Below the pieces are notes generated by a model. The model saw only the letters and a program-made list of their open reading frames with translations, was not told where the DNA came from and made no database searches. Position numbers and translations under genes: made by a program. Positions 10,696 to 25,872 of a DNA stretch of 59,225 bases are shown here, piece after piece. Source of the stretch: Bacteroidia bacterium (GTDB lineage Bacteria; Bacteroidota; Bacteroidia; UKL13-3); NCBI GenBank assembly GCA_025454975.1, contig JALONK010000019.1, forward strand, positions 1 through 59,225, given 5' to 3'. Every line of letters begins with the position of its first letter. Within the stretch, counting starts at the first letter, position 1.

Positions 10696-11058
10696 ATGAT
10701 AAATAACTATCAATATATAAATTTAGAATACTTGTACACCATTGCGGATAATGACCCTTTATTTGTAAATGACATGATTAATGATTTTATAAAAATTATT
10801 CCCGGTTACATTTACGAACTAGAAAAAGCAATAGATGAAAATAACAGTGACCTTATTTATTTTTTAGCACAAAAATTAAAATCATCTGTAACAATTGTAG
10901 GTGTTAGTGATATTTTGGCTAAGGCTGATGGGGTTGCACATGCCATGAAGTTTAAACAAGATATTATTACTGCAAAACGTGAAATGGTTTCGGTAAGCGA
11001 ATTGTTTTTAAGAGCGAAGTCGGAACTTGAAATTGAATTAAATGTAATTAACCACTAA
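10696..11058 (+). CDS. Hpt-like protein lacking the phosphoacceptor histidine
   Basis: A 120-aa helical protein that reads as a single histidine-phosphotransfer domain: an N-terminal helix with DMINDFIKIIPGYIYELEKA and then LAQKLKSSVTIVGV. In active Hpt domains this second stretch is AHxLKGxxxxxG, with the phosphorylated His at the position occupied here by Gln59. It therefore cannot relay phosphate in the usual way, and may serve as a docking or inhibitory protein. It starts 1 bp after the YaiO gene and ends 6 bp before a response regulator, so it is in the same operon. Confidence 0.75.
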   Translation: MINNYQYINLEYLYTIADNDPLFVNDMINDFIKIIPGYIYELEKAIDENNSDLIYFLAQKLKSSVTIVGVSDILAKADGVAHAMKFKQDIITAKREMVSVSELFLRAKSELEIELNVINH

Positions 11059-12630: not shown

Positions 12631-14061
12631 ATGACATTACATAATACCATAGAAATTTTAAATACTGCTGTGTTTTTTTATGCCATCACCATCAGTATTG
12701 CTTATGTGGTATTAGCTCTTTTAAGCGCTAGGGCTATTCATGTGTATATGCGTAAAAATAAATTTGTTGATCATAACTTAATTTTAACATCACCTCATGC
12801 GCCTTCTGTTTCATTAATTGCACCTGCCTATAATGAAGAAAAAAGTATCGTAGAAAATATCAGATCATTACTAAGTATACATTATACCAGCTTTGAAGTG
12901 ATAATTGTAAATGATGGAAGCAAAGACAATACCCTTCAAACTATTATTGATGCGTATCAATTAGTTCCTGTACAATATTTTGTGAATAACAAATTAAACA
13001 CTAAAACTGTAAGGGCAGTTTATAAATCAACCAATAGAGCATTTAAAAAATTAATTGTAGTTGATAAGGAAAATGGTGGAAAAGCAGACGCCCTTAATGC
13101 AGGAATCAATGTTTCGCAATATGATTTGATTACATGCATTGATGTAGATTGTGTGGTGGAACAAGATGCGATTTTGAAACTCGTTAAACCTTTTTTAGAA
13201 GAACGTAACCATGTTATTGCTACAGGTGGGGTTGTTCGAATTGCTAACTCATGTGTGGTACGACATGGCCGATTAGTTGAAATACATGCACCTAAAAATA
13301 TTATACCGAGGTATCAGGTAATTGAATATTTACGTGCTTTTTTATTAGGGCGTATGGCATGGAGTAAACTTAATGGTCTCTTATTAATAAGTGGTGCATT
13401 AGGTATTTTTGATAAGTCGGTTGTTATTGCATGCGGCGGCTATCGAACCGATACTGTTGGCGAAGATATGGAATTGGTTGTACGAATGCGGAAGTACATG
13501 ACCGACCATAAATTAAAGTATCGTGTAGTTTATATCCCTGATCCTTTATGTTGGACAGAGGCTCCTGACGATTATAAGGTTCTTGCCCGCCAAAGAAATC
13601 GTTGGATGCGCGGAACAATGGAAACTTTATGGTTTCATAAATATTTGTTTTTAAATCCTAAATATGGATTGTTAGGATTAGTTAGCTATCCTTTTTGGTT
13701 ATTTTTCGAATGGTTGGCTCCTATCGTCGAATTTTTAGGATTGCTCTATTTTATTTTTTTAGTGTTTATTGGTTACAGCAATTGGCATTTCTTTTTAATT
13801 TTATTTTTTACCGTATACTTCTTTGCCATTACCATTTCTATACTAGCTTTGGTTTACGAAGAATTTAGTTACAGGCAATATGCTAAACACGCTGATATTA
13901 TCAAATTTATCAGCACTTTATTAGTTGAGCCTTTAATATATCATCCTCGTTCGGTGTGGTGGGGACTAAAGGGTAACCTTGATAAGTTTAAAGGATATGG
14001 AAGTTGGGGCGAGATGACCCGAACCGGATTTACTGAAAAGCCTTCGGAAAGTAAGGAATAA
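12631..14061 (+). CDS. Processive family 2 glycosyltransferase (PgaC/cellulose-synthase-like)
   Basis: A 476-aa inner-membrane polysaccharide synthase. An N-terminal transmembrane helix (about 12-36) precedes the GT-A domain with APAYNEE, VNDGSKDN, the DxD-type DVDC, the acceptor Asp in GEDMEL and the processivity motif RQRNRW. Two or three C-terminal transmembrane segments (about 345-410) complete the channel. This layout matches poly-N-acetylglucosamine and hyaluronan-type synthases. With the YaiO barrel and LtaS-like enzyme in the same operon it probably makes the exported polymer. Sugar identity cannot be read from the sequence. Confidence 0.9.
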   Translation: MTLHNTIEILNTAVFFYAITISIAYVVLALLSARAIHVYMRKNKFVDHNLILTSPHAPSVSLIAPAYNEEKSIVENIRSLLSIHYTSFEVIIVNDGSKDNTLQTIIDAYQLVPVQYFVNNKLNTKTVRAVYKSTNRAFKKLIVVDKENGGKADALNAGINVSQYDLITCIDVDCVVEQDAILKLVKPFLEERNHVIATGGVVRIANSCVVRHGRLVEIHAPKNIIPRYQVIEYLRAFLLGRMAWSKLNGLLLISGALGIFDKSVVIACGGYRTDTVGEDMELVVRMRKYMTDHKLKYRVVYIPDPLCWTEAPDDYKVLARQRNRWMRGTMETLWFHKYLFLNPKYGLLGLVSYPFWLFFEWLAPIVEFLGLLYFIFLVFIGYSNWHFFLILFFTVYFFAITISILALVYEEFSYRQYAKHADIIKFISTLLVEPLIYHPRSVWWGLKGNLDKFKGYGSWGEMTRTGFTEKPSESKE

Positions 14062-14091: not shown

Positions 14092-15438
14092 ATGCGCATC
14101 TTTATCATAGAAGATGATATTTGGTACAGTGAAATTCTTGTTTACCATTTATCATTGAATCCCGACTATGAAATTCATAAGTTTAACACTGCTGCCGAAG
14201 CATTGTTAAACTTATACCTAAAACCCGATGTAATAACACTGGATTACTCGCTTGATGATGCTCGAGGTGATGAAGTATTAAAGAAAATAAAAGCTTATAA
14301 CCCTGAAATTGATGTAATCATTATCTCAGGTCAAGAAGATGTGTCAACAGCTATTGGCTTACTAAGGGAGGGTGCCTTTGATTATTTTGTAAAAGATGAT
14401 GAGGTAAAAGATCGCTTATGGAATGCCTTGATAAAGATTAGGGATAAAAAGAATTTACAGAAGCAGGTAGAAGATTTAACGAATGAGGTTGTTGATAAAT
14501 ATGAAATTACCAAAACCATTATTGGTAACAGTACGGCAATTAAACAAGCGCTTCACTTAGTTCAAAAGGCTACCAAAACTAATATAACCGTAAGTATCAA
14601 CGGCGAAACAGGAACAGGTAAAGAGCTTATTGCTAAAGCCATTCACTACCATAGTGAAAGAGCCAAAAAACCATTTGTAGCAGTAAATGTTGCTGCAATC
14701 CCGAAAGATTTAATGGAAAGTGAACTTTTTGGGTATGAAAAAGGTGCTTTTACAGGAGCATTAAATAGGAGGATTGGCAAATTTGAAGAGGCAAATAAAG
14801 GCACTTTGTTTTTAGATGAAATTGGTGAACTGGATTTAAACTTGCAATCGAAGTTATTACGTGCATTACAAGAGAAAGAGATTACAAGAATTGGTGGTTC
14901 AGGTACAATTTCCATAGATGCAAGAATTATTGTTGCCACCCATAAAAATTTACAACAGGAAGTTGTTAAAGGAAATTTTAGAGAAGATTTGTATTACCGA
15001 CTACTTGGCTTGCCCATTTATTTGCCTCCGTTACGCGAACGTGGTAACGATGTTTTACTTATTGCTAAAGCTTACTCCGATAGGTTTTGTAAAGAAAATA
15101 AATTAAGCAAAAAACAAATTAGTCAAGATGCTCAACAAAAGTTATTGTCGTACCCTTTTCCCGGTAACGTTCGTGAGTTGGCAGCCATTATGCATTTAGC
15201 AGTTGTTTTATGTGAAGGTGATTGCATTCAAGCTGATGATATTACATTTCAATCATCGGATACCGTAAATAATTTATTGTTGAATGAAAGAACACTTGAA
15301 GATTACAACAAACTTATTATAGAACATTTTTTACAGAAATATGGGAATGATGTGCTATTGGTAGCCAAGAAACTTAACATAGGGAAATCAACTTTATACC
15401 GAATGATTCAATCGGGTTTAATTAAACACAATAAGTGA
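14092..15438 (+). CDS. NtrC-family sigma-54-dependent response regulator
   Basis: A 448-aa transcription activator. The N-terminal receiver (1-120) has EDD and Asp51 in VITLDYS. The AAA+ domain has Walker A GETGTGKE, the sigma-54 contact loop GAFTGA (218-223), the Walker B region LFLDEIGEL and the R-finger segment FREDLYYRL. The C-terminus has a Fis-type helix-turn-helix (LLVAKKLNIGKSTLYRMI). It pairs with the hybrid kinase that overlaps its stop by 1 bp. The sigma-54-like site in front of the surface-protein gene at 18377 is a natural target. Confidence 0.93.
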   Translation: MRIFIIEDDIWYSEILVYHLSLNPDYEIHKFNTAAEALLNLYLKPDVITLDYSLDDARGDEVLKKIKAYNPEIDVIIISGQEDVSTAIGLLREGAFDYFVKDDEVKDRLWNALIKIRDKKNLQKQVEDLTNEVVDKYEITKTIIGNSTAIKQALHLVQKATKTNITVSINGETGTGKELIAKAIHYHSERAKKPFVAVNVAAIPKDLMESELFGYEKGAFTGALNRRIGKFEEANKGTLFLDEIGELDLNLQSKLLRALQEKEITRIGGSGTISIDARIIVATHKNLQQEVVKGNFREDLYYRLLGLPIYLPPLRERGNDVLLIAKAYSDRFCKENKLSKKQISQDAQQKLLSYPFPGNVRELAAIMHLAVVLCEGDCIQADDITFQSSDTVNNLLLNERTLEDYNKLIIEHFLQKYGNDVLLVAKKLNIGKSTLYRMIQSGLIKHNK

Positions 15439-18224
15439 TGAAAAACAGCGATAAGAATCAGGATATAGAATGGTTAAAGCGCAGATTAGATGATGTAGAG
15501 GCAGATTTTACGCGCACTAAAAACGAACTCGAGTTATTAAGGAAAACTTACGATGAATTAAAAACTAATACCGAGAAACAATCTTTAATATATCAACAGA
15601 TAAACGAACAATATAGCAGGCATATTCATAAAAATCATGCGCGCTTTACCGCCATTATTTCAAATATGCACACCGCTTTATTAGTTGAAGATGCCGACCG
15701 AAAAATCTTATTGACTAATCAATTGTTTTGCGACTTGTTTAACATCACTGCTTCTCCCGACCAACTAGTAGGTTTTGATTGCAGCAGTTCGGCTCAACAA
15801 AGCAAAGTGATGTTTATGGATGAAGAAGAGTTTGTGAGGGATATTGATACATTACTCATCAATCGACAGCCTGTATATGGTCAAGTTCTGTTTATGAAAA
15901 ATGGAAAAATATTGGAACGTGATTATGTTCCAATATTTGATGGTAGCGACTATGAAGGACATTTCTGGCAATATCGCGATGTTACTGATGAACGTGAATT
16001 AAGAAACGAACTCGAAAAAATTGCTCGGTTCCCCGACGAAAATCCAAATCCTGTAATGCGTTTTTCAGGTGATGGCAAGCTACTTTATAGTAATAAAGTC
16101 GGAACGCAATTAATAGAAGTATTAAATGAATTTAAACCTGATTCATTAAAGCAACTTATTACAGATACGTTACAACACAAGGAAATAACTGCTGTGGAGT
16201 TGCAAGTAGGTTCAACTATTTATCAGGTGAACAAGGTTTACATCCCCGAAAAAAACTACATTAATTTATATTTTTCTGATATAACTGAGAAGTATTTATA
16301 TCAACACAAACTTGCTGAACAACAAAAGTTTTATGAAACTATTTTAAATAAAATCCCTACCGATATTGCCGTTTTCGATGCTCATCACCGTTATGTTTTT
16401 GTTAACCCTGTAGCGATAAAGGATGATGAAATTCGCAAATGGATAATTGGTAAGGATGATTTTGAATATTGTAAGTATAGAGATAAGCCTTTATTGATAG
16501 CACAAACCAGAAGGGAAAAGTTTAATCAGGCAGTTGCTTCTAAAAATGGCACATCATGGGAAGATGAATTACTTACACCAAATGGTAAAGAATATGTTTT
16601 TCGACGGATGTTTCCCGTTTTTGATGAACAAGGAAATCTACAAATTGTTATCGGATTTGGTATTGATATCACTAAGATTAAAATAGCCGAATTGAAAGCA
16701 GATGAATCGCGTAAGTCGAAAGAAATATTTTTGGCAAATATGAGTCATGAGATTCGTACACCGATTAATGGGGTTTTAGGTTTGGCAAATATGTTACAAA
16801 AAACACGGTTGTCAACTCAGCAGCAAAACTTCATCAGTTTATTAAAACGTTCTGCCGAAAGTTTATTGGTTATTATTAATGATATTTTAGACTTAGCAAA
16901 AATTGAAAGTGGTAAGTTTGATATTGAGAAAATTCCTTTTAACTTACATGAAGTATGCTTGCAAGTAATACAAACCTTAGCGTTTAAAGCAGAAGAAAAA
17001 CAACTTCAGCTTATTTATTCTCCAAACAATATTGATGATTTAAACTTGTTGGGTGACCCTTATCGCCTTAATCAGATACTTATAAATTTATTAAACAATG
17101 CCATTAAATTTACCCATACAGGTAAGGTAGTATTAAACGTTACTTCATCACAAATTAATGCTCAACTGGTATCTGTACAATTTTCAGTGGTTGACACAGG
17201 TATTGGTATAGAATCGGAGAAGTTGGATGGAATTTTTGAAGAGTTTAATCAAGCCAATGAAACTATTTCAAGAAAGTTTGGGGGCACAGGACTTGGTTTA
17301 TCTATTTGTAAAAAGCTTATATCATTACAAGGCGGCAAAATTTGGGTAGATAGTGAATTAAATAAAGGAACAACATTTTATGTTTTATTAGAATACCCTA
17401 TTACAGCACTCAGGGTTAAACCTGATGTGCAAGAAATTTATAAGAATGTTAATGCACTTAAAGGTAAAAGAGTATTAATTGCAGAAGACAATGAAGTAAA
17501 TATGTTTATCGCTAAAAGTTTATTGCTAGAGTGGGGAATGGAAGTTGAAGAAGCGGTTAACGGATTGATTGCATTAGAAAAGTATAACCAATTATCTTTT
17601 GATATTGTTATAATGGATATGCAAATGCCTGAAATGGATGGAGCATCTGCAACTAAGGCTATTCGTAAGATAGAAGAATCGTCGAAATTACATGTTCCTA
17701 TCATAGCATTAACAGCCAATGCCATTAAAGGCGAAAAGGAAAAGTATTTAGCTATAGGTGCTGATGATTATTTATCTAAACCTTTTGATGAAAATGATTT
17801 ATTTGAAAAAATTGCATCCTTGTTAAAGCTATCAACCCATTCGCTACATGATTTAGCCCAACCTCTAAACTTCGATAAAACTTATCCATTATACAGCACT
17901 ACATTAATTGATAGAATAGATAAAGACAATAAAGATTTTTTGCTGAGCATGATGCGAATGGTGGTTACAACACTACCACAAATTACAGATCAGATTTTTA
18001 GTGCTGTTGAAGAACAAAACTACGAACAGGTAAATAGGCTTATGCATAAACTTAAAGCAACAGTTCAAACATTACAAATTCATAAAGCCGTTGAACTTAT
18101 CGAACGTATTCAACATGATATTGAAAACCAACAATTAGAAAATATAAAAGATATGGCCATTCGTTTGGTATATTTCCTTCAAACTGTAACACAAGCCATT
18201 CGGCAAGACTTTGATATTCGGTAA
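15438..18224 (+). CDS. Soluble hybrid histidine kinase (PAS-HisKA-HATPase-REC-Hpt)
   Basis: A 928-aa sensor kinase without transmembrane segments. An N-terminal coiled coil (1-60) is followed by two or three PAS-like domains (about 65-430). HisKA carries FLANMSHEIRTPINGV with His437, and the ATPase has an N box and GGTGLGLSI. The receiver has Asp727 in VIMDMQMPEMDG, and a C-terminal Hpt has LMHKLKA with His870. It is thus a complete phosphorelay in one chain, sensing a cytoplasmic signal. It probably feeds the NtrC-type regulator and the single-domain regulator upstream. ATG at 15438 shares one base with the previous stop; a GTG at 15435 is the alternative. Confidence 0.93.
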   Translation: MKNSDKNQDIEWLKRRLDDVEADFTRTKNELELLRKTYDELKTNTEKQSLIYQQINEQYSRHIHKNHARFTAIISNMHTALLVEDADRKILLTNQLFCDLFNITASPDQLVGFDCSSSAQQSKVMFMDEEEFVRDIDTLLINRQPVYGQVLFMKNGKILERDYVPIFDGSDYEGHFWQYRDVTDERELRNELEKIARFPDENPNPVMRFSGDGKLLYSNKVGTQLIEVLNEFKPDSLKQLITDTLQHKEITAVELQVGSTIYQVNKVYIPEKNYINLYFSDITEKYLYQHKLAEQQKFYETILNKIPTDIAVFDAHHRYVFVNPVAIKDDEIRKWIIGKDDFEYCKYRDKPLLIAQTRREKFNQAVASKNGTSWEDELLTPNGKEYVFRRMFPVFDEQGNLQIVIGFGIDITKIKIAELKADESRKSKEIFLANMSHEIRTPINGVLGLANMLQKTRLSTQQQNFISLLKRSAESLLVIINDILDLAKIESGKFDIEKIPFNLHEVCLQVIQTLAFKAEEKQLQLIYSPNNIDDLNLLGDPYRLNQILINLLNNAIKFTHTGKVVLNVTSSQINAQLVSVQFSVVDTGIGIESEKLDGIFEEFNQANETISRKFGGTGLGLSICKKLISLQGGKIWVDSELNKGTTFYVLLEYPITALRVKPDVQEIYKNVNALKGKRVLIAEDNEVNMFIAKSLLLEWGMEVEEAVNGLIALEKYNQLSFDIVIMDMQMPEMDGASATKAIRKIEESSKLHVPIIALTANAIKGEKEKYLAIGADDYLSKPFDENDLFEKIASLLKLSTHSLHDLAQPLNFDKTYPLYSTTLIDRIDKDNKDFLLSMMRMVVTTLPQITDQIFSAVEEQNYEQVNRLMHKLKATVQTLQIHKAVELIERIQHDIENQQLENIKDMAIRLVYFLQTVTQAIRQDFDIR

Positions 18225-18264
18225 TCCCAATATAGGAATTTATTGCCCGTATTGGGATTTTTCT
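18223..18264 (+). terminator. Terminator ending the eight-gene operon
   Basis: AATCCCAATA (18223-18232) pairs exactly with TATTGGGATT (18250-18259), followed by T's. It overlaps the stop of the kinase gene and separates the operon from the surface-protein gene, which therefore needs its own promoter. Confidence 0.75.
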
Positions 18265-18333
18265 TGCGCCTTATACTAAATATGATACAATGTAAATATC
18301 AGATAAACAGGCGGTAAGAAAATATTTTTCTAT

Positions 18334-18350
18334 TTGGCATAAGTATGGTT
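18334..18350 (+). promoter_or_regulatory. Candidate sigma-54 promoter for the giant surface protein
   Basis: TTGGCA-TAAGTA-TGGTT: the -24 half matches YTGGCA exactly, and the conserved G of the -12 half is at the right 12-bp distance (18336 to 18348). However, the -12 element reads TGGT instead of TTGC. It lies 27 bp before the ATG at 18377, downstream of a terminator and immediately after genes for an NtrC-type activator and kinase. No TAnnTTTG box is seen in this gap. Confidence 0.5.
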
Positions 18351-18376
18351 AACAGGTATTCACAATATCTGTAGTC

Positions 18377-21300
18377 ATGAAAAACTTTTTATTTGTTATT
18401 CTTTTTGTTAACCTGCTAACAACGGTAGGTGTATATGCACAAACCAACATTCAGTCTGTTACCTCAGGAAGTTTTAATTGGAGCCAAACAACAGCATGGC
18501 AAGGTGGAATAGTTCCGGGACGTACACATCATGCCGAGATTAGGGCAAACACAACGGTATTATTAACCAATGATGTTGTTATTAATAACCTCGTTATTCG
18601 CTCAGGAGCCACTTTGTTTTTGCCTGTAAATAGTAATCGAATATTAACGATTGAAGGAAATTTAACTATTGAATCAGGTGGTGTTTTAAGTATCACAAGC
18701 AGCGGAAGTGTTAGCTCATCTGTCCACCATCAATTGATTGTTAAGGGTAATATTATTAATAATGGAACTTTAGATTGTGATGTAAGTGTTGGAGGATTTA
18801 ACCACCGTACTACACTATTTTTAAAGGGTAAAGGTTCACAAAGTTTTGATGTGGATGGTGCTAGTGAAGATTATTTTAATGTAGTTATTGATAAGGATGA
18901 TTCGGTAACAAATAATCAGGTTATTATCACAGCACCTTCATCATTCACATTTAATGTTAATCAATTTAGGGTAACATCAGGTGCAACATTTTTATTCGAG
19001 TCGAATGCTAATGAATATACACTTGTTGTGGATAGCAATTTATTGATTGAACAAGGAGGAGCGATCAGTACGCAAGTAACAACAAATACAAAAGACCTAG
19101 AACATGAAATTATTATTTATGGTAACTTTATAAATAATGGAACTTACGATGCGTACGCTGTTCGTAGAGCTACATACGCAATCTTAACCACCTTTATGGG
19201 AACTGCCTCACAACAATTTACTTTAGGTGTGTTGTCGGTAACTAATTTTTATGAAGTAACAATTGATAAAAACAATAATACAGCAAATAATACCCTTACT
19301 TTTACACCTGCCGGAATCATTACTTTTGAAGGGGGTTCAATAGCTAATGCACGTTTTTTTAATTTCACTAATGCAAAGTCTAACTTTGTTTTAACAGGAA
19401 ATGCCACGTTTGTTTCACATTTTATCAATCAAAATAGTTTTGATAATATTAACTTTACTTTAAATGCACCAAACGCAATTATTGGAGGTTTTAGCGGTGA
19501 TTTTGATCTGCGCAATCAAACTACAGTAAACATAAATGCAGGTGTTTTTTTAGTTGGTACTGCCAACGGACATAATCTTGTGTTAAATGCATCAAACACT
19601 AGGTTAAATATTAATGGAGGTACCTTAAGTATTGCATCTAATCAAACTTTCGATAGAGGATTAACTACATTAAGTTCAGGTGAAATAATTGTAGGTAGGG
19701 TGGCAATTAATTCAGGTAATAGTTCTTTTCAAATTGCTTCATCAAATTTTGTTGCAACAGGTGGAGTAGTATCTATTGCTAATCCTAATCAAGGTTCAGG
19801 TAATGATGTTGATTTGTCGGCAACCGAGGCGGCTACATTTTCTAATCAATCATCCATTAAGATTGGGTATGGTTTAACCACATCAGGTTTAACGTTTAAA
19901 GTGGCAGACAATATTTATAAATTAACTTTTGAACCCGGTAAAAATCTAACGGCAAAATTATCAGGAACATTAACAATAAATTCATCCATTGATTTAGCTG
20001 AAGGGAAGCTACAACTTAACAATAATCGTTTGATTGTAGCAGGAAGTTTATTTAATGTTACTCAAAATCCTATCATCAGCACAGCTTCAAGTTCATTAGA
20101 GTTTACTGGAAGCAGTAATGTTGAATTTGCATTAAGTCAAACATCAAATAATATTACTAATCAACTCAACACCCTTATTGTTCGAACCTCAAATAATGCC
20201 ATAGTTACCATGCGTTCGAATGTTAAAGTATCCGGAACTTTTTCCCTAACCTCAGGTGATTTAGCCATTGATAGTGATACGTTAACTTTAAGGGATGCTG
20301 TTAATATTACTACGAGTAACGCTAATGCTATAAGAGGAAGTGCAAATGCCATAGTTCAATTCACAATTAGTGCAAATCGAACTATACATTTTGATCAATC
20401 CGTTGATTCGGTTACCAACTTTCTTAAACAATTATTAATTAATAATACAAATTCAGCGGTTATTACTATTGGAAATAAGTTAGTATTGGCAGAACTACGT
20501 ATTCTTTCAGGTTCAGTTAATATTTCAGGTCAGTCGCTAGTAATTGCCGAATTAAATGGTAATGCTAGAGCTAATGTAATAACCAATAGTTCAACTAACC
20601 TTAGTATTGTTGGAAATAATACCTTAGATATTCCATCAACCATTACTACCACCAATATAATCACCGTAAATCGGCCGGGTGGAACCGTATCAATCAATGC
20701 AAATATTTCTGCAACAAGAGTGAATTTGATTGCAGGAACATTAAACGGAAATGGCAGAACCATTACTTTTAACCAATGGGAAAATAATGGAGGGCAATAC
20801 ACGGCAGGTTTAGGTGGACGAGTAATAACAACAGGCAGTAGTAGCATTGCAGGGGCTGTTGTAACTCAGTTTAACCGAATTGATATTGGTTCAACTTCAA
20901 CTTTAAACATTACATCAAATGTTGTGGCTGACTCAATTATAATTCCTGCTTCAAACAGCAGTATTTCTATTACTTTAAACTCAGGTGATACCCTTCGTGT
21001 GAATAGAAGTTTTATTATTAATCAACCAACCTCAAACTCACGCACAGCATTATTTCAGGTAACCGGTGGTGTAGCATATTTAAGAGGTCAACTGCAATTA
21101 TCCGGCACTAGTACAGGAACTTCACGGGTGACACAAATTACAGTGAACACAGGTGAAGTTCATATACCGGCTAACCTGGTTGTTTCCGGAACTACACCTG
21201 CGAATAAGAACTTTAATTTAGTTAATGGTAATGGACGTTTGGTGATATATGGTAATCCAACATTAACTAACGCATCATTTACTTCAGGAATAAACAGTAG

Positions 21301-23707
21301 TATTGTTTTTGGTGATAGTAACGTTTTACAACAATTTAATAAATTCGGTTCAGGTACCTATTCAAATATTGTTTTTGCTAATCGTTCGGTATCCGGGGTA
21401 CGACTAGCAGCTAATCTTTCATCGGCTGATTTTACGGGAAATTTAATTGTAGAAGCCGGGAAATTTCATGATGTCGGATTTGCAATTTCTGCATCAAATG
21501 GAAAAACATTTAATATTAAAGCTAATGCAGAATATGTTCATACCTCAACAACTTATCCGAATTTTAGTACTTATCTATTCGAAACCGGAAGTATGTTTAA
21601 TTATGCTCACATTGCTGCTATCAATATTCGTCAAGCCGATTATGATGGATTAGCTTTAAGCGGTGGAAGCGTAAAATCAATGGTTAGTGATATAACCGTA
21701 AAAGGTTTATTAAGATTGGATAGTGGTTACCTTTCTATCGGATCAAACACACTTACTTTATCAGGTGGATTTATTGGGAATGTTAACAACAACTTGCGCG
21801 CAAACGGAAATTCTAATTTACGCTTAAACGGTACAGGCAATATTGGAGCATTATTTATAGATCAAACAATAGAAGGTGTAACAAATACATTTAGTTCAGT
21901 TACACTTAACAGAAATGGAGGTGTTATTACCTTGGCCAATCGTTTGCGTATACACGATGTAATCACACCTACTGCGGGTACCTTGAATAGCAATGGACAC
22001 TTAGTATTAACTTCAACACAAAATAAAACAGCACGAGTTGCGTCCGGTAACGGGAATGATATTATTGGAAACGTAACTGTTGAAAGATATATTCCGGCTG
22101 TTACTCGAAGGTATCGTTTCTTTTCATCGCCTGTAAAGAACTTCACATTTAATCAATTGGTAGATGATATTTTTATTAGCGGTCCGGGTGGTGCTGCTAA
22201 TGGATTTGATCCATCAACTGCAAATGGACAAACAATTTTTACTTATCAAGAATCAACAACAGGTGGTAGAGGATGGAAAGGACTAACACATGTAAATAAT
22301 GGATTAGCCGCAGGCAGAGGAGCTATTGTATTTATTCGTGGTGATAGAAGCATTGGTACCCCAAATTGGTTTACAGCACCATTTCCTGCACAAAATGCAG
22401 TTACACTAGATGCCTTTGGTGAATTAAATTCGGGTGATATAAATGTAGCGTTAAGTTATACTAATACCGGCAACAGTTTGGCTGATGGTTGGAATTTAGT
22501 TGGTAATCCTTACCCATCACCCATTGATTGGAATAGTTTAACTAAAACTAATATTGCACCGTTTTATTACATTTTAAACCCGTTAACCGGTAGTTATGAA
22601 GTTCAATCGGCATCGTCAGCTCCAATTGCATCCGGACAGGCATTTTTTGTAAAGGCTATAGCATCTAACGCCGCCATAGGGTTTACCGAAAGTTCAAAAG
22701 TTGGAACCACACCAAACACTTTTTTTAAGACAAATGCTATCGAACAACTTGAGGTAGTTATGCAACTTGATTCCTTAAATGCAGATAAAGCTATGTTGCA
22801 ATTTGTGAAAACTGCCGGCACAGGTTTTAATCAACTGGAAGATGCACCTAAGTATTATAACAGTATTATAAATTTATCTTTTTTAACTAGCGATGCACAA
22901 GAGGTACAGTTGAGTGCAGTGCCAAATACATTATTAACAGATACATTTTCTTTAGTTACATCAACAGGTGTAGGTGGTTCATATACTTTACATTTTAATT
23001 TACAGCAACTTCCTTCAAGTACCGGCATATATTTATTAGATGCTTATATCAACGGGAATTTTGATTTACGTCAACAAAACTATTATACATTTAATGTGAT
23101 GCTTAATGATACGGCAACATTTAGAAATAGGTTTAAGGTTGTTTTTGTAACCAATGCTGTATTACCTGTTAAATGGGGAAATGTGGAAGCGAAACAAAAA
23201 TATGATAAGGTTGAAGTACTATGGAATACAGTTACGGAAGTAAACAATAGTAGGTTTGAAGTTGAGCGAAGTATTGATGGATTAAATTTTAAAACCATTG
23301 GAAAGGTATTAGGTTCGGGTAATTCCAATGTATATAATAGGTATCAATTTTATGATGAGGAGATTGATTTAAGCGGGTTGCAAACCATATTTTATCGAAT
23401 AAAGCAAATTGATTATGATGGAAAATTCAGCTATTCGAAAGTTGTAACAGTTCATAACGATAATATAAAAACTGCTGAAGAGTTTTTACTTTTCCCTAAC
23501 CCGGCAAGCACAAACACTACTATACAAACCACATCACCTATAGTTGAAATAAAATTGACAGATGTGAGTGGAAAAGAAATAAATGTTAATCATGAAATAG
23601 GAGTAAATCAATTGAGCATTGCTGTTAAAGATTTAGCTCGTGGGGTATATTATGTTCAAGTAAAAACACTTGCCTTCATGGTTGTAAAAACCCTAATAAT
23701 AGAATAA
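18377..23707 (+). CDS. Giant surface protein with beta-repeat body and T9SS type A sorting domain
   Basis: A 1776-aa secreted protein. A signal peptide (ending VGVYAQ) precedes about 1200 residues rich in N, T, S and G, with repeated short beta-strand units such as LTIESGGVL, LRLDSGYLSIGSNTLTLSGG and LNSNGHL, which suggests a beta-helix or stacked-strand shaft. A compact segment begins near RRYRFFSSPV (about residue 1240). The C-terminal 85 residues form a T9SS type A domain with LLFPNPAS and GVYYVQVKT. It is probably exported by T9SS and attached to the cell surface or the exopolysaccharide. The next gene follows after 4 bp. Confidence 0.88.
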   Translation: MKNFLFVILFVNLLTTVGVYAQTNIQSVTSGSFNWSQTTAWQGGIVPGRTHHAEIRANTTVLLTNDVVINNLVIRSGATLFLPVNSNRILTIEGNLTIESGGVLSITSSGSVSSSVHHQLIVKGNIINNGTLDCDVSVGGFNHRTTLFLKGKGSQSFDVDGASEDYFNVVIDKDDSVTNNQVIITAPSSFTFNVNQFRVTSGATFLFESNANEYTLVVDSNLLIEQGGAISTQVTTNTKDLEHEIIIYGNFINNGTYDAYAVRRATYAILTTFMGTASQQFTLGVLSVTNFYEVTIDKNNNTANNTLTFTPAGIITFEGGSIANARFFNFTNAKSNFVLTGNATFVSHFINQNSFDNINFTLNAPNAIIGGFSGDFDLRNQTTVNINAGVFLVGTANGHNLVLNASNTRLNINGGTLSIASNQTFDRGLTTLSSGEIIVGRVAINSGNSSFQIASSNFVATGGVVSIANPNQGSGNDVDLSATEAATFSNQSSIKIGYGLTTSGLTFKVADNIYKLTFEPGKNLTAKLSGTLTINSSIDLAEGKLQLNNNRLIVAGSLFNVTQNPIISTASSSLEFTGSSNVEFALSQTSNNITNQLNTLIVRTSNNAIVTMRSNVKVSGTFSLTSGDLAIDSDTLTLRDAVNITTSNANAIRGSANAIVQFTISANRTIHFDQSVDSVTNFLKQLLINNTNSAVITIGNKLVLAELRILSGSVNISGQSLVIAELNGNARANVITNSSTNLSIVGNNTLDIPSTITTTNIITVNRPGGTVSINANISATRVNLIAGTLNGNGRTITFNQWENNGGQYTAGLGGRVITTGSSSIAGAVVTQFNRIDIGSTSTLNITSNVVADSIIIPASNSSISITLNSGDTLRVNRSFIINQPTSNSRTALFQVTGGVAYLRGQLQLSGTSTGTSRVTQITVNTGEVHIPANLVVSGTTPANKNFNLVNGNGRLVIYGNPTLTNASFTSGINSSIVFGDSNVLQQFNKFGSGTYSNIVFANRSVSGVRLAANLSSADFTGNLIVEAGKFHDVGFAISASNGKTFNIKANAEYVHTSTTYPNFSTYLFETGSMFNYAHIAAINIRQADYDGLALSGGSVKSMVSDITVKGLLRLDSGYLSIGSNTLTLSGGFIGNVNNNLRANGNSNLRLNGTGNIGALFIDQTIEGVTNTFSSVTLNRNGGVITLANRLRIHDVITPTAGTLNSNGHLVLTSTQNKTARVASGNGNDIIGNVTVERYIPAVTRRYRFFSSPVKNFTFNQLVDDIFISGPGGAANGFDPSTANGQTIFTYQESTTGGRGWKGLTHVNNGLAAGRGAIVFIRGDRSIGTPNWFTAPFPAQNAVTLDAFGELNSGDINVALSYTNTGNSLADGWNLVGNPYPSPIDWNSLTKTNIAPFYYILNPLTGSYEVQSASSAPIASGQAFFVKAIASNAAIGFTESSKVGTTPNTFFKTNAIEQLEVVMQLDSLNADKAMLQFVKTAGTGFNQLEDAPKYYNSIINLSFLTSDAQEVQLSAVPNTLLTDTFSLVTSTGVGGSYTLHFNLQQLPSSTGIYLLDAYINGNFDLRQQNYYTFNVMLNDTATFRNRFKVVFVTNAVLPVKWGNVEAKQKYDKVEVLWNTVTEVNNSRFEVERSIDGLNFKTIGKVLGSGNSNVYNRYQFYDEEIDLSGLQTIFYRIKQIDYDGKFSYSKVVTVHNDNIKTAEEFLLFPNPASTNTTIQTTSPIVEIKLTDVSGKEINVNHEIGVNQLSIAVKDLARGVYYVQVKTLAFMVVKTLIIE

Positions 23708-23711
23708 GCAG

Positions 23712-24089
23712 ATGATAAAAGTTTTTATTTTCGAAAATAGCATCATGCATCACGAAATTATCAAGTTTGCATTTACAACAGAAGCTATGCATGCAGAGGT
23801 TTTTTCTGGTTACGATGAACAAATATTTAATTTAACATCCTTACCTGATGCAGTAGCAGTAAATTTTAACTTCGAAGGTGCCTTAAACGGTGAGCAATTG
23901 TTGGTTGCCATAAAACAATTATTTCCCTACATACCCTTGGTTATGTATTCAAGAGTAGCCAAAAAGGAGGCAGCAGTTATTGCATTTGAGTTAGGTGTTT
24001 ATTATCATTTGTTTAATAAAGATGAACACTTGCATCACTTTCCTAAAATCATTCGACAAGTAGTTCAAAAATTCAATGATGAGAGATAA
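23712..24089 (+). CDS. Receiver-like protein with Asp-to-Asn at the phosphosite
   Basis: A 125-aa single-domain protein with the pattern of a CheY-like receiver. The first strand is KVFIFENS, where the acidic pair is Glu8-Asn9. The third strand is VAVNFNFEG, with Asn51 at the place of the phosphorylated Asp. The fourth is LVMYS, and FNKDE carries the conserved Lys103. Without Asp51 it cannot accept phosphate normally, so it may be locked in one state. It begins 4 bp after the surface-protein gene and is probably cotranscribed with it. Confidence 0.75.
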   Translation: MIKVFIFENSIMHHEIIKFAFTTEAMHAEVFSGYDEQIFNLTSLPDAVAVNFNFEGALNGEQLLVAIKQLFPYIPLVMYSRVAKKEAAVIAFELGVYYHLFNKDEHLHHFPKIIRQVVQKFNDER

Positions 24090-24189
24090 ATTAATTAAAC
24101 CTGTATTAAATGTTTGTTGTAATCGTTTTTTATCCTTATTTCGAAATACGGCAACCTATCTTAATACTTCAATTTTTAACTAGTAACTA

Positions 24190-25281
24190 ATGAATATTAT
24201 TCATATTCTAAGAGGGAAAGCTATACCTGAGTCGAAGAATTCGATAAATAGGGTTGTATATACATTAGCTGCAAATCAGGTTGAAGCCGGGCATGATGTA
24301 ACCGTATGGGGCTTGCATAATGATGCTATTCATAATTATCCTCCTCGTAATTTTAAAACCATATTATTTAAAACCGGATTGTTAGGTTTATGGTTAAGTA
24401 AGTCGTTATTGAAACAACTTAATCAATTAAAAACAACCGATATGGTGCACCTTCATGGCACCTTTAATCTTGAGTGTTTGTTACTTGCCTATCGGTTAAT
24501 AAAGAAGAATATTCCATTCATCTACACTCCTTATTGCAGTTCGGCCAGGCGACATCGCATTATCAAATTGCCTATTACAAAATGGATTATTGATCAACTT
24601 GAATTATATGTAATGAAGCATGCAAAGATGGTTCAATTCGTGCAGTCGTTTGAGTTGGAATGGTATAAGGATGCCGAAATTAACGCCTCTTATATTCCGG
24701 TTGGTCAGCATGTTCATCACCTACAGTTTAAGTTTAGTCCGGTACTCATTGAAGAATACCCGGTGTTTGCCACACTTTATTTAAAAGAACATGATACAGG
24801 CGGACTTCTTACAATTATTCATGCTTTTGAACTGTATAAGCGTGCAGGTGGAATGGGAGAGTTATGGATTATTACTGATGTTAACGACTATAAAAGCATT
24901 AAAAATGACATAAGTCGTTCAGGTATTGAAAAGTTTAGTCGCTTTATGTTTTATACAACCGAACAAGAAAAGTTAAATTTAATTGCAAATACAACTTGGA
25001 TGGTTGCCATGAATGCGAAGGATATATTACCATTACATGTATTAGAAACATTAGCAATTCAGGTTCCGGTAATTGTAAATGAGCAAAGCGATTTGGCTGA
25101 TAAAATTGTAGCTTATCAAGCCGGTTATAATATAGGAGAACCAACACCTGTTGCTTTATGTAAAACATTTATTCATGCCTATTATGAAGTTAACAGGGCT
25201 AGAGAACTAGGTAAAAATGGTTATCGATTAGTATTACGAGAGTATAACTGGAATAAAATTATCGAGCAATTTAACCACTAA
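24190..25281 (+). CDS. GT4-type glycosyltransferase
   Basis: A 363-aa GT-B fold glycosyltransferase, probably retaining GT4-like. The N-terminal domain starts MNIIHILRGKA and has LAANQVEAGHDVTVWGL and MVHLHGTFN. The C-terminal domain has the nucleotide-sugar region around LHVLETLAIQVPVIVNEQSDLADKIV, corresponding to the E-x7-E-like motif. No membrane segments. It would transfer a sugar from a nucleotide donor to a glycan or protein. Its place between two receiver-like genes suggests it modifies the surface protein or the polymer made by this locus. Confidence 0.82.
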   Translation: MNIIHILRGKAIPESKNSINRVVYTLAANQVEAGHDVTVWGLHNDAIHNYPPRNFKTILFKTGLLGLWLSKSLLKQLNQLKTTDMVHLHGTFNLECLLLAYRLIKKNIPFIYTPYCSSARRHRIIKLPITKWIIDQLELYVMKHAKMVQFVQSFELEWYKDAEINASYIPVGQHVHHLQFKFSPVLIEEYPVFATLYLKEHDTGGLLTIIHAFELYKRAGGMGELWIITDVNDYKSIKNDISRSGIEKFSRFMFYTTEQEKLNLIANTTWMVAMNAKDILPLHVLETLAIQVPVIVNEQSDLADKIVAYQAGYNIGEPTPVALCKTFIHAYYEVNRARELGKNGYRLVLREYNWNKIIEQFNH

Positions 25282-25289
25282 ATAGGTTC

Positions 25290-25338
25290 AAACAGCATTT
25301 TACATCAAATTACCGCAGATTATCATAAAATGCTGTTT
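25290..25338. repeat. Perfect 13-bp inverted repeat in the leader of the next gene
   Basis: AAACAGCATTTTA (25290-25302) and TAAAATGCTGTTT (25326-25338) are exact inverse complements separated by 23 bp. No T run follows, so it is not a standard terminator. It lies 9 bp after the glycosyltransferase stop and 45 bp before the ATG at 25384. It could be a structured leader or a binding site. Confidence 0.6.
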
Positions 25339-25383
25339 AAATAAATAAACAGCCATTTGTTTTGTAAAGTAAGTTTTGACAAT

Positions 25384-25872
25384 ATGAAAAAATTATTAGC
25401 ATTTATCATTGAATCCAACACGGATGATGCAGCCCAGATGGCATCAATATTAGGAGGTACAGGTAAATATGATACATTGGTATATTATTCAGTTAAAGAG
25501 TGTATACCACATTTAAATATTAAGCCTGATTTGATTGTATTAAACTATCATAATCAAGAAGAGCAAATGGAATTAACATCCCATTTAGCGCTACATCAAC
25601 AGTCGAAAAATTTGGTTATTCTTTCAACTAAGGAAGAAATCAGGCACTTGTTATCACAGTCGAACCTACCCAACCATGTAGTTGATGTTGTGGTTAAAAA
25701 TGAATGGGCTGATATGCAGTTGGAGCGAATTGCTGCCAATTTTTACAGCATGAATTCTTTAGTGTTATCAAATACGGCATTACTGGAAGAAGTTAGATCA
25801 GAGCGTAAAAACATGTTATTGTTTTTAGGGATATTAATAGCCTTGTTCTCAGCCAGTATTATATATCAGTAG
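25384..25872 (+). CDS. Tail-anchored receiver-like protein with Asp-to-Asn change
   Basis: A 162-aa protein. Residues 1-125 follow the receiver pattern: KKLLAFIIESNTDD, then PDLIVLNYHNQ with Asn54 at the phosphosite, LVILSTKEE, and a Lys in VVKNEW. The extreme C-terminus (about 144-162) is a single hydrophobic segment, LLFLGILIALFSASIIYQ, that would anchor it to the inner membrane from the cytoplasmic side. The acidic-pocket residues are reduced (Glu10-Ser11). A TTG at 25357 adds 9 residues, but the ATG is preferred. Probably a non-phosphorylatable signalling adaptor; function is inferred. Confidence 0.7.
   Translation: MKKLLAFIIESNTDDAAQMASILGGTGKYDTLVYYSVKECIPHLNIKPDLIVLNYHNQEEQMELTSHLALHQQSKNLVILSTKEEIRHLLSQSNLPNHVVDVVVKNEWADMQLERIAANFYSMNSLVLSNTALLEEVRSERKNMLLFLGILIALFSASIIYQ

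Follow-up and report, generated by a model that had tools for sequence, protein, structure and literature searches.

A single open reading frame of a Bacteroidia bacterium encodes P0001, a receiver domain that has lost its phosphorylatable aspartate and ends in one hydrophobic tail. This combination of a tail anchor with a lost phosphosite is found in 1 of the 56 tail-anchored receivers that we collected, namely P0001 itself. The gene lies in a stretch of 59,225 nucleotides, here called the window. In some loci of other genomes, gene order, overlapping genes and one gene fusion link a tethered receiver to the polysaccharide machinery. Receivers have mostly been studied as soluble switches. Single-domain response regulators, pseudo-receivers and tail anchors are each known kinds; what is new is their combination. 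Our confidence in the fold, the tail and the kinship of P0001 is high, and it is moderate for the mechanism.

Fold and hydrophobic tail of P0001

The features of the window are listed in Table 1. P0001 is read from an ATG; a TTG upstream, at 25357, would make a protein of 171 aa. The residues MKKLLA that follow the ATG are also the start of L002, a homologue from the same genus.

Table 1. Features of the window discussed in the text
Feature	Position	Strand	Remarks
HPt-like stand-alone protein, GT2 operon	10696..11058	+	Gln59 where same-genus orthologues have His
PgaC-like GT2 synthase	12631..14061	+	best NCBIfam match PgaC_IcaA, below cut-off
Sigma-54 response regulator, receiver intact	14092..15438	+	active-site residues kept
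PAS-HisKA-HATPase-REC-HPt hybrid kinase	15435..18224	+	HPt 20.9 bits, below cut-off 24.6
Large secreted protein, 1776 aa	18377..23707	+	type IX sorting tail; sub-threshold G8 match
P0002, second Asn-type receiver (E8, N9, N51), no membrane tail	23712..24089	+	PF00072 21.9 bits
P0003, GT4 glycosyltransferase	24190..25281	+	PF13439 above cut-off; homologues in Wza-Wzc-Wzx-GT4-polymerase cassettes
P0001, tail-anchored pseudo-receiver	25384..25872	+	162 aa, ATG start
Codon AAC, Asn54 of P0001, phospho-acceptor position	25543..25545	+	sequence
P0001 C-terminal hydrophobic segment, residues 144-162 (M144-Q162)	25813..25869	+	hydropathy, AlphaFold2

Pfam and NCBIfam give nothing above cut-off for P0001, and PF00072 is unmatched even at E ≤ 1. 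Sub-threshold Pfam/NCBIfam matches to NMT_C, TuaF and PRK08118 were rejected as family evidence, as was the single weak match (E 0.16) of a phmmer search against PDB sequences. A receiver HMM made in this analysis matches the protein. The AlphaFold2 model is a (βα)5 receiver fold (mean pLDDT 91.6, pTM 0.79) with strands at residues 4–9, 29–34, 50–54, 77–81 and 99–104 and helices alternating. It was built on an alignment of 50 related sequences, comprising 49 of the 55 other tail-anchored receivers and L002, and is not fully independent because these rows were receivers. A Foldseek search with the model gave 111 PDB matches at E ≤ 0.001, and receivers make up nearly all of the best 50 of the 111. 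The best match is the receiver of FrzS from Myxococcus xanthus. The receiver-plus-linker of DctD and RssB, both of which have long helices after the receiver, are also among the matches. Helix 5 of P0001 (residues 109–161) enters the C-terminal hydrophobic segment without a break. An earlier note on this DNA, made from the sequence alone, had proposed a receiver-like domain and named structure prediction as a check; the fold and the unbroken helix bear it out.

The single C-terminal hydrophobic segment noted there is also confirmed. In a 19-residue Kyte–Doolittle window the tail reaches 2.17 versus at most 1.01 in residues 1–135, and the protein has no hydrophobic segment elsewhere. Among shuffled sequences, 46 of 20,000 carry an equally hydrophobic window in the last 22 residues and 1,179 of 20,000 carry one anywhere. 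The hydrophobic core is short, about 17–18 residues. On an approximate membrane-insertion scale, the best sums are −3.25 (favourable) for 17 residues, −0.52 for 19 and +1.84 (unfavourable) for 20. Charged residues (RSERKN) stand just before the tail and none comes after it, from which an N-in orientation is expected. These sequence features predict that the C-terminal tail anchors P0001 in the inner membrane.

Active site

The active-site residues of P0001 are E10 and S11 (acidic pair), N54 (phosphosite), S81 and K105. P0001 has thus lost the phospho-Asp and the second residue of the acidic pair but keeps S81 and K105, and V102 replaces the aromatic residue of the Y–T switch. The Asn assigned to the phosphosite by the earlier note is confirmed by its AAC codon. 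A review defines a pseudo-receiver as one without at least one of five conserved residues (PMC12632262), and P0001 falls under this definition of a pseudo-receiver or aspartate-less receiver through S11 and N54. According to the review, the activation and inactivation of bacterial pseudo-receivers are still a mystery (PMC12632262).

The second Asn-type receiver proposed on the other side of the glycosyltransferase is also present, as P0002 with N51, and the intervening gene is a GT4. The PF00072 score of P0002 lies below the cut-off of 30.2 bits, and its Lys column is unsure in the active-site alignment.

The locus and its neighbours

The GT2 operon contains a stand-alone HPt-like protein that scores 12.4 bits with PF01627, below the cut-off. 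Its orthologues in G002, G008 and G003 pass the cut-off and have the phosphotransfer His. Downstream of the GT2 gene, the sigma-54 regulator has as its best NCBIfam match the PEP-CTERM-box response regulator TIGR02915, below cut-off, a family linked to exopolysaccharide loci. Read by eye, the hybrid kinase has the HisKA His, the receiver Asp and the HPt His. The large secreted protein lies between this kinase and the two pseudo-receivers. Like the receivers of the cassette, P0002 comes after the hybrid kinase, although here the secreted-protein gene intervenes.

Within the genus, the GT2 gene is followed either by the P0001 homologue L002 (G001) or by a gene of 696–700 aa (G002 locus L017, G008 locus L018), which appears from its sequence to encode methionyl-tRNA synthetase. 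L002 is intact and tail-anchored, lies directly downstream of GT2 and is about 30% identical to P0001. In addition, G001 carries a canonical tail-anchored receiver (L078) flanked by a hybrid kinase and Wza-Wzc. The GT2 gene of the window is separated by 13.5 kb from the counterpart of the 696–700 aa gene. This interval holds the sigma-54 regulator, the hybrid kinase, the secreted protein, P0002, GT4, P0001 and two opposite-strand genes.

Positions 14092–25872 thus combine a sigma-54 regulator, a hybrid kinase, a receiver and GT4 in one block. No gene of the window is labelled Wza, Wzc, Wzx or polymerase, and PF00953 has no match on the window contig. With no transferase, Wza or Wzc in the block, the clearest partner of P0001 is missing. 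Two Wza matches are found elsewhere in the same genome; the stretches around them contain no such receiver or GT4, and the six stretches of this genome that were examined hold no other tail-anchored receiver. The block, which adjoins a PgaC-like synthase locus, looks like a cassette stripped of exporter, flippase, polymerase and transferase. Because the phosphotransfer residues of the kinase and of the sigma-54 regulator are kept, the transcriptional branch might still run, whereas the direct branches probably could not.

An exopolysaccharide cassette around GT4 homologues

The GT4 flanking P0001 proved meaningful: such receivers are frequent in the exopolysaccharide cassette in which its homologues lie. 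With P0003 as query, which does not depend on receivers, 21 of 395 genomes match at E ≤ 1e-22, including its own. Of the 21 places outside this genome, 20 were fetched; the remaining one, in G211, is L051. Among the 20, 19 loci are long enough to judge; L098 is too short.

At least Wzc and a polymerase-like gene surround GT4 in 19 of 19 loci. A search near GT4 homologues, which the earlier note had suggested, finds a receiver directly before Wza/Wzc in 14 of them. One further locus (L103) has a receiver fused to Wza, and four have no receiver before Wza/Wzc (L093, L099, L102, L110). A sigma-54 regulator is visible in 12 of the 19. In L107, one of the 14, Wza is not recognised and an opposite-strand frame lies between the receiver and Wzc. 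Pfam confirms Wza and Wzc in L078 and a protein of the Wzy_C type in L051. Pfam gave the cassette protein labelled Wzx no match, and the label is therefore tentative, leaning on similarity among the loci.

Five of the 14 pre-Wza/Wzc receivers have a TM tail (L092, L096, L105, L107, L108) and nine have none. A TM-tailed receiver likewise precedes Wza in L051 and L078, which had been found in other ways. A basic-then-hydrophobic tail is seen in 6 of the 9 TM-less receivers versus 0 of 51 other single-domain receivers, by thresholds fixed after the tails had been inspected. These short tails (L091, L095, L097, L100, L101, L106) may be amphipathic membrane anchors.

Tail-anchored receivers elsewhere in the class

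With a canonical tail-anchored receiver as query, 151 of 295 genomes of the class match at E ≤ 1e-16, a list that mixes ordinary receivers with matches reaching into the tail. Forty-six loci were fetched, and 41 of them hold a tail-anchored receiver by our filter. The other five are L045, L062, L063, L065 and L080; L063 is the same place in G119 as L107, where a tail-anchored receiver was later counted. Together with L015 and the window, the 41 loci make up 43 loci in 39 genomes with 56 tail-anchored receivers, counts that are not estimates of prevalence because loci were mostly picked for matches reaching the tail. The view of the earlier note that C-terminally anchored receivers are uncommon does not hold: outside the window we count 55, spread over 38 further genomes of the class. 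The five active-site residues are intact in all 55.

A wider set of 78 comprises the 56 tail-anchored receivers, 18 cassette receivers or fusions, P0002, L002 and two other receivers of the window. Three of its members are non-canonical: P0001, P0002 and an extra receiver of 127 aa in L096. L002 is canonical in the active-site alignment, but its β4–α4 segment is shortened, which makes the position of its T residue unsure.

Within five genes of a tail-anchored receiver, a histidine kinase is found in 31 of 43 loci, an HPt-like gene in 18 and a sigma-54 or LytTR regulator in 16. The HPt assignment was confirmed by Pfam in the three loci checked (L026, L030, L039). A polysaccharide gene lies within the same distance in 7 of the 43 loci, the window included, and in two of these on the opposite strand only. 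None was found, with few seeds and within five genes, in the other 36. With a kinase in 31 loci and no polysaccharide gene in 36, polysaccharide control is therefore not the sole role of tail-anchored receivers.

Phylogeny of the receivers

Receivers with an X or with a domain match shorter than 86 residues (2 of the 56 tail-anchored) were omitted from the trees and identical rows were dropped; in one sampling, the kinase, LytTR and other classes contributed at most 15 rows each. The 154-row tree contains 55 tail-anchored rows, namely 54 of the 56 and L002, and all 55 share one side with sigma-54 receivers (SH-aLRT 94). On this tree the tail-anchored label changes 13 times (45 for shuffled labels), at least 4 of them by starred branches. 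The 13 changes mean that the tail-anchored set is not one clade, that "family" is to be used loosely and that tails have repeatedly been gained or lost.

P0001 is sister to L002 in the 154-row tree (SH-aLRT 95) and in the 92-row tree (85), on long branches. The pairing may be an artefact, both sequences being long-branched and about 30% identical. In the 92-row tree, P0001, P0002 and L002 fall inside one 52-row group (SH-aLRT 90), which also holds 18 of 19 pre-Wza, 3 post-PGT, 18 sigma-54 and 10 of 49 other tail-anchored rows. Seventeen pre-Wza receivers and two others form one group (95) without P0001 and P0002, and P0001 groups with L002, L079 and others (81). With few columns and long branches, finer placement is unsafe. 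By BLAST, with matches to L040, L078 and L028 and also to other receivers, P0002 may be a pre-Wza-type receiver that lacks the tail; the tree, in which its branch measures 3.04, does not place it there.

Overlap and fusion with the initiating transferase

In L079 and L081, a PF00953 transferase gene overlaps by 4 nt with the start of the gene for a tail-anchored receiver, when the latter is read from its first ATG. In L108 (17980–19656, G379), one frame of 558 aa contains PF00953, PF00072 and a C-terminal TM segment. Linkage to an initiating transferase is thus seen in these three relatives. PF00953 transferases are polytopic. The receiver part of the fusion is modelled by AlphaFold with the same long final helix (residues 501–557); the model of the whole (pLDDT 67.3, pTM 0.40) is too weak to show docking.

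The PGT-REC-TM fusion is a single case. A strict search (E ≤ 1e-90, three candidates scored per genome) recovers it in 1 of 395 genomes, G379. A looser search of 252 genomes (E ≤ 1e-40, up to five candidates per genome) shows no two-domain open frame among the matches listed, which come from 73 of the 252. In G257, considered as a second fusion and rejected, the match reaches a receiver but crosses two stops, at a place where a transferase gene adjoins one for a sigma-54 regulator.

Proposed role of P0001 and alternatives

P0001 is kin to the tail-anchored receivers that belong to an exopolysaccharide cassette of Bacteroidota, and its tail would keep the receiver domain at the inner face of the membrane. 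For its canonical relatives we envisage that a relay of hybrid kinase and HPt would pass phosphate to the tethered receiver; this receiver would in turn act on a polysaccharide enzyme at the membrane by touching it directly. The target would be the initiating phosphoglycosyl transferase in the clearest cases and possibly the Wza/Wzc exporter in others. P0001 itself most likely needs no phosphorylation and would serve the neighbouring GT4, the GT2 synthase or both as a membrane adaptor that is either constitutive or gated by a ligand. The precedents of EpsW and FrzS, the gene overlap, the fusion and the position in the cassette favour a tethered receiver that acts by contact. The fold, the tail, the loss of the active site, the relatives, the cassette, the gene overlap and the single fusion were established computationally; for P0001, we infer membrane insertion, the partner and the direction of regulation. 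Our tentative proposal, to which we give somewhat less than an even chance, is that P0001 acts in polysaccharide synthesis as a membrane adaptor independent of phosphorylation, a role that can be compared with those of EpsW and FrzS.

Part of the same evidence would fit a decaying remnant, a reading that we consider unlikely. Here the cassette would have lost Wza, Wzc, Wzx, polymerase and transferase and left both receivers under relaxed selection. The cassette genes are indeed missing from the block, both receivers carry Asn as the phosphosite residue and sit on long branches (2.32 and 1.51 in the 154-row tree), the stand-alone HPt has Gln for His, and G002 and G008 do without the block between GT2 and the next gene. 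However, the reading frame of P0001 is intact, its fold confidence is high, and the tail and the active-site Lys are kept. L002, at about 30% identity, is still an intact tail-anchored frame beside GT2, and such divergence is more than an unselected frame should survive. It is also improbable, and more so, that the tethered P0001 is a decoy which docks on the hybrid kinase or HPt without taking phosphate and so lowers the flux to the sigma-54 regulator. The regulator and the kinase do keep their phosphotransfer residues (the latter by eye), the trees put the receivers of sigma-54 regulators close to the tail-anchored set, and the frequency of kinases near tail-anchored receivers would suit this role; yet a cytosolic decoy would need no tail.

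Two further readings concern the domain itself. Deamidation of Asn54 to Asp would restore a phosphorylatable receiver, and a reversion of Asn at this site has been reported for one receiver (PMC4395418); with an acidic-pair residue also lost (Ser11) and Val102 at the switch position, we regard this as very improbable. That P0001 is no receiver at all and is instead an unrelated small membrane protein is hardly credible: Pfam and NCBIfam are silent above cut-off, but the AlphaFold2 model, the Foldseek receivers and the receiver HMM speak against it.

Extended beyond P0001, the adaptor reading leads to a broader proposal, which we regard as rather unlikely as a whole. Bacteroidota would steer exopolysaccharide synthesis post-translationally through receivers which TM or amphipathic tails tether to the membrane and which are docked on either the initiating transferase or the Wza/Wzc exporter. 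In the PGT-REC-TM fusion this link would be covalent, and P0001 would be a phosphorylation-free version that locks or retunes the control where an HPt and two receivers have lost their phosphotransfer residues. If true, recurrent tethered receivers would open the post-translational control of surface sugars in Bacteroidota to direct tests. P0001 offers a tractable case of a pseudo-receiver, with two glycosyltransferases nearby and canonical relatives for comparison.

Relation to known systems

The canonical tail-anchored receivers (L015, L078, L079, L081 and others) share with P0001 the order of receiver and C-terminal membrane segment; unlike P0001, they have all five active-site residues. 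In M. xanthus, EpsW, described as a single-domain regulator and phosphorylated on Asp58, activates in its phosphorylated form the initiating phosphoglycosyl transferase EpsZ post-translationally (PMC12802240). As in the relatives described here, a single-domain receiver is tied to polysaccharide initiation. EpsZ is monotopic (PMC12802240), whereas the transferases found here are of the PF00953 type. P0001 itself differs from EpsW in having Asn (N54) in place of a phosphorylatable Asp and no transferase in its block.

The FrzS receiver has Ser at the second acidic position and binds neither Mg2+ nor BeF3 (PMC1974792), and FrzS controls EPS production (PMC3158785). It resembles P0001 in the Ser at the same acidic-pair position and in having no phospho-Asp; unlike P0001, it is part of a polar motility protein, for which the text available describes no C-terminal membrane tail (PMC1974792). 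RitR shares the Asn phosphosite, whose substitution is reported to be without effect, but is a DNA-binding regulator (PMC4395418). Judged by title, and with phrase matching that may be narrow, our literature search found no tail-anchored or membrane-anchored receiver among the papers listed. Nor did these, with incomplete coverage of subscription papers, include a fusion of a receiver with a phosphoglycosyl transferase or such a cassette.

Further observations on the cassette

In L103 (13711–14895), one fused frame holds both a receiver and a Wza-like lipoprotein precursor. If it were cut at the lipobox, the receiver would be left with a tail anchor; alternatively, the frame could reflect a missed internal start or an assembly fault. 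A gene of 178–183 aa recurs beside the sigma-54 regulator of the cassette in L095, L096, L101, L103, L104, L106 and L108.
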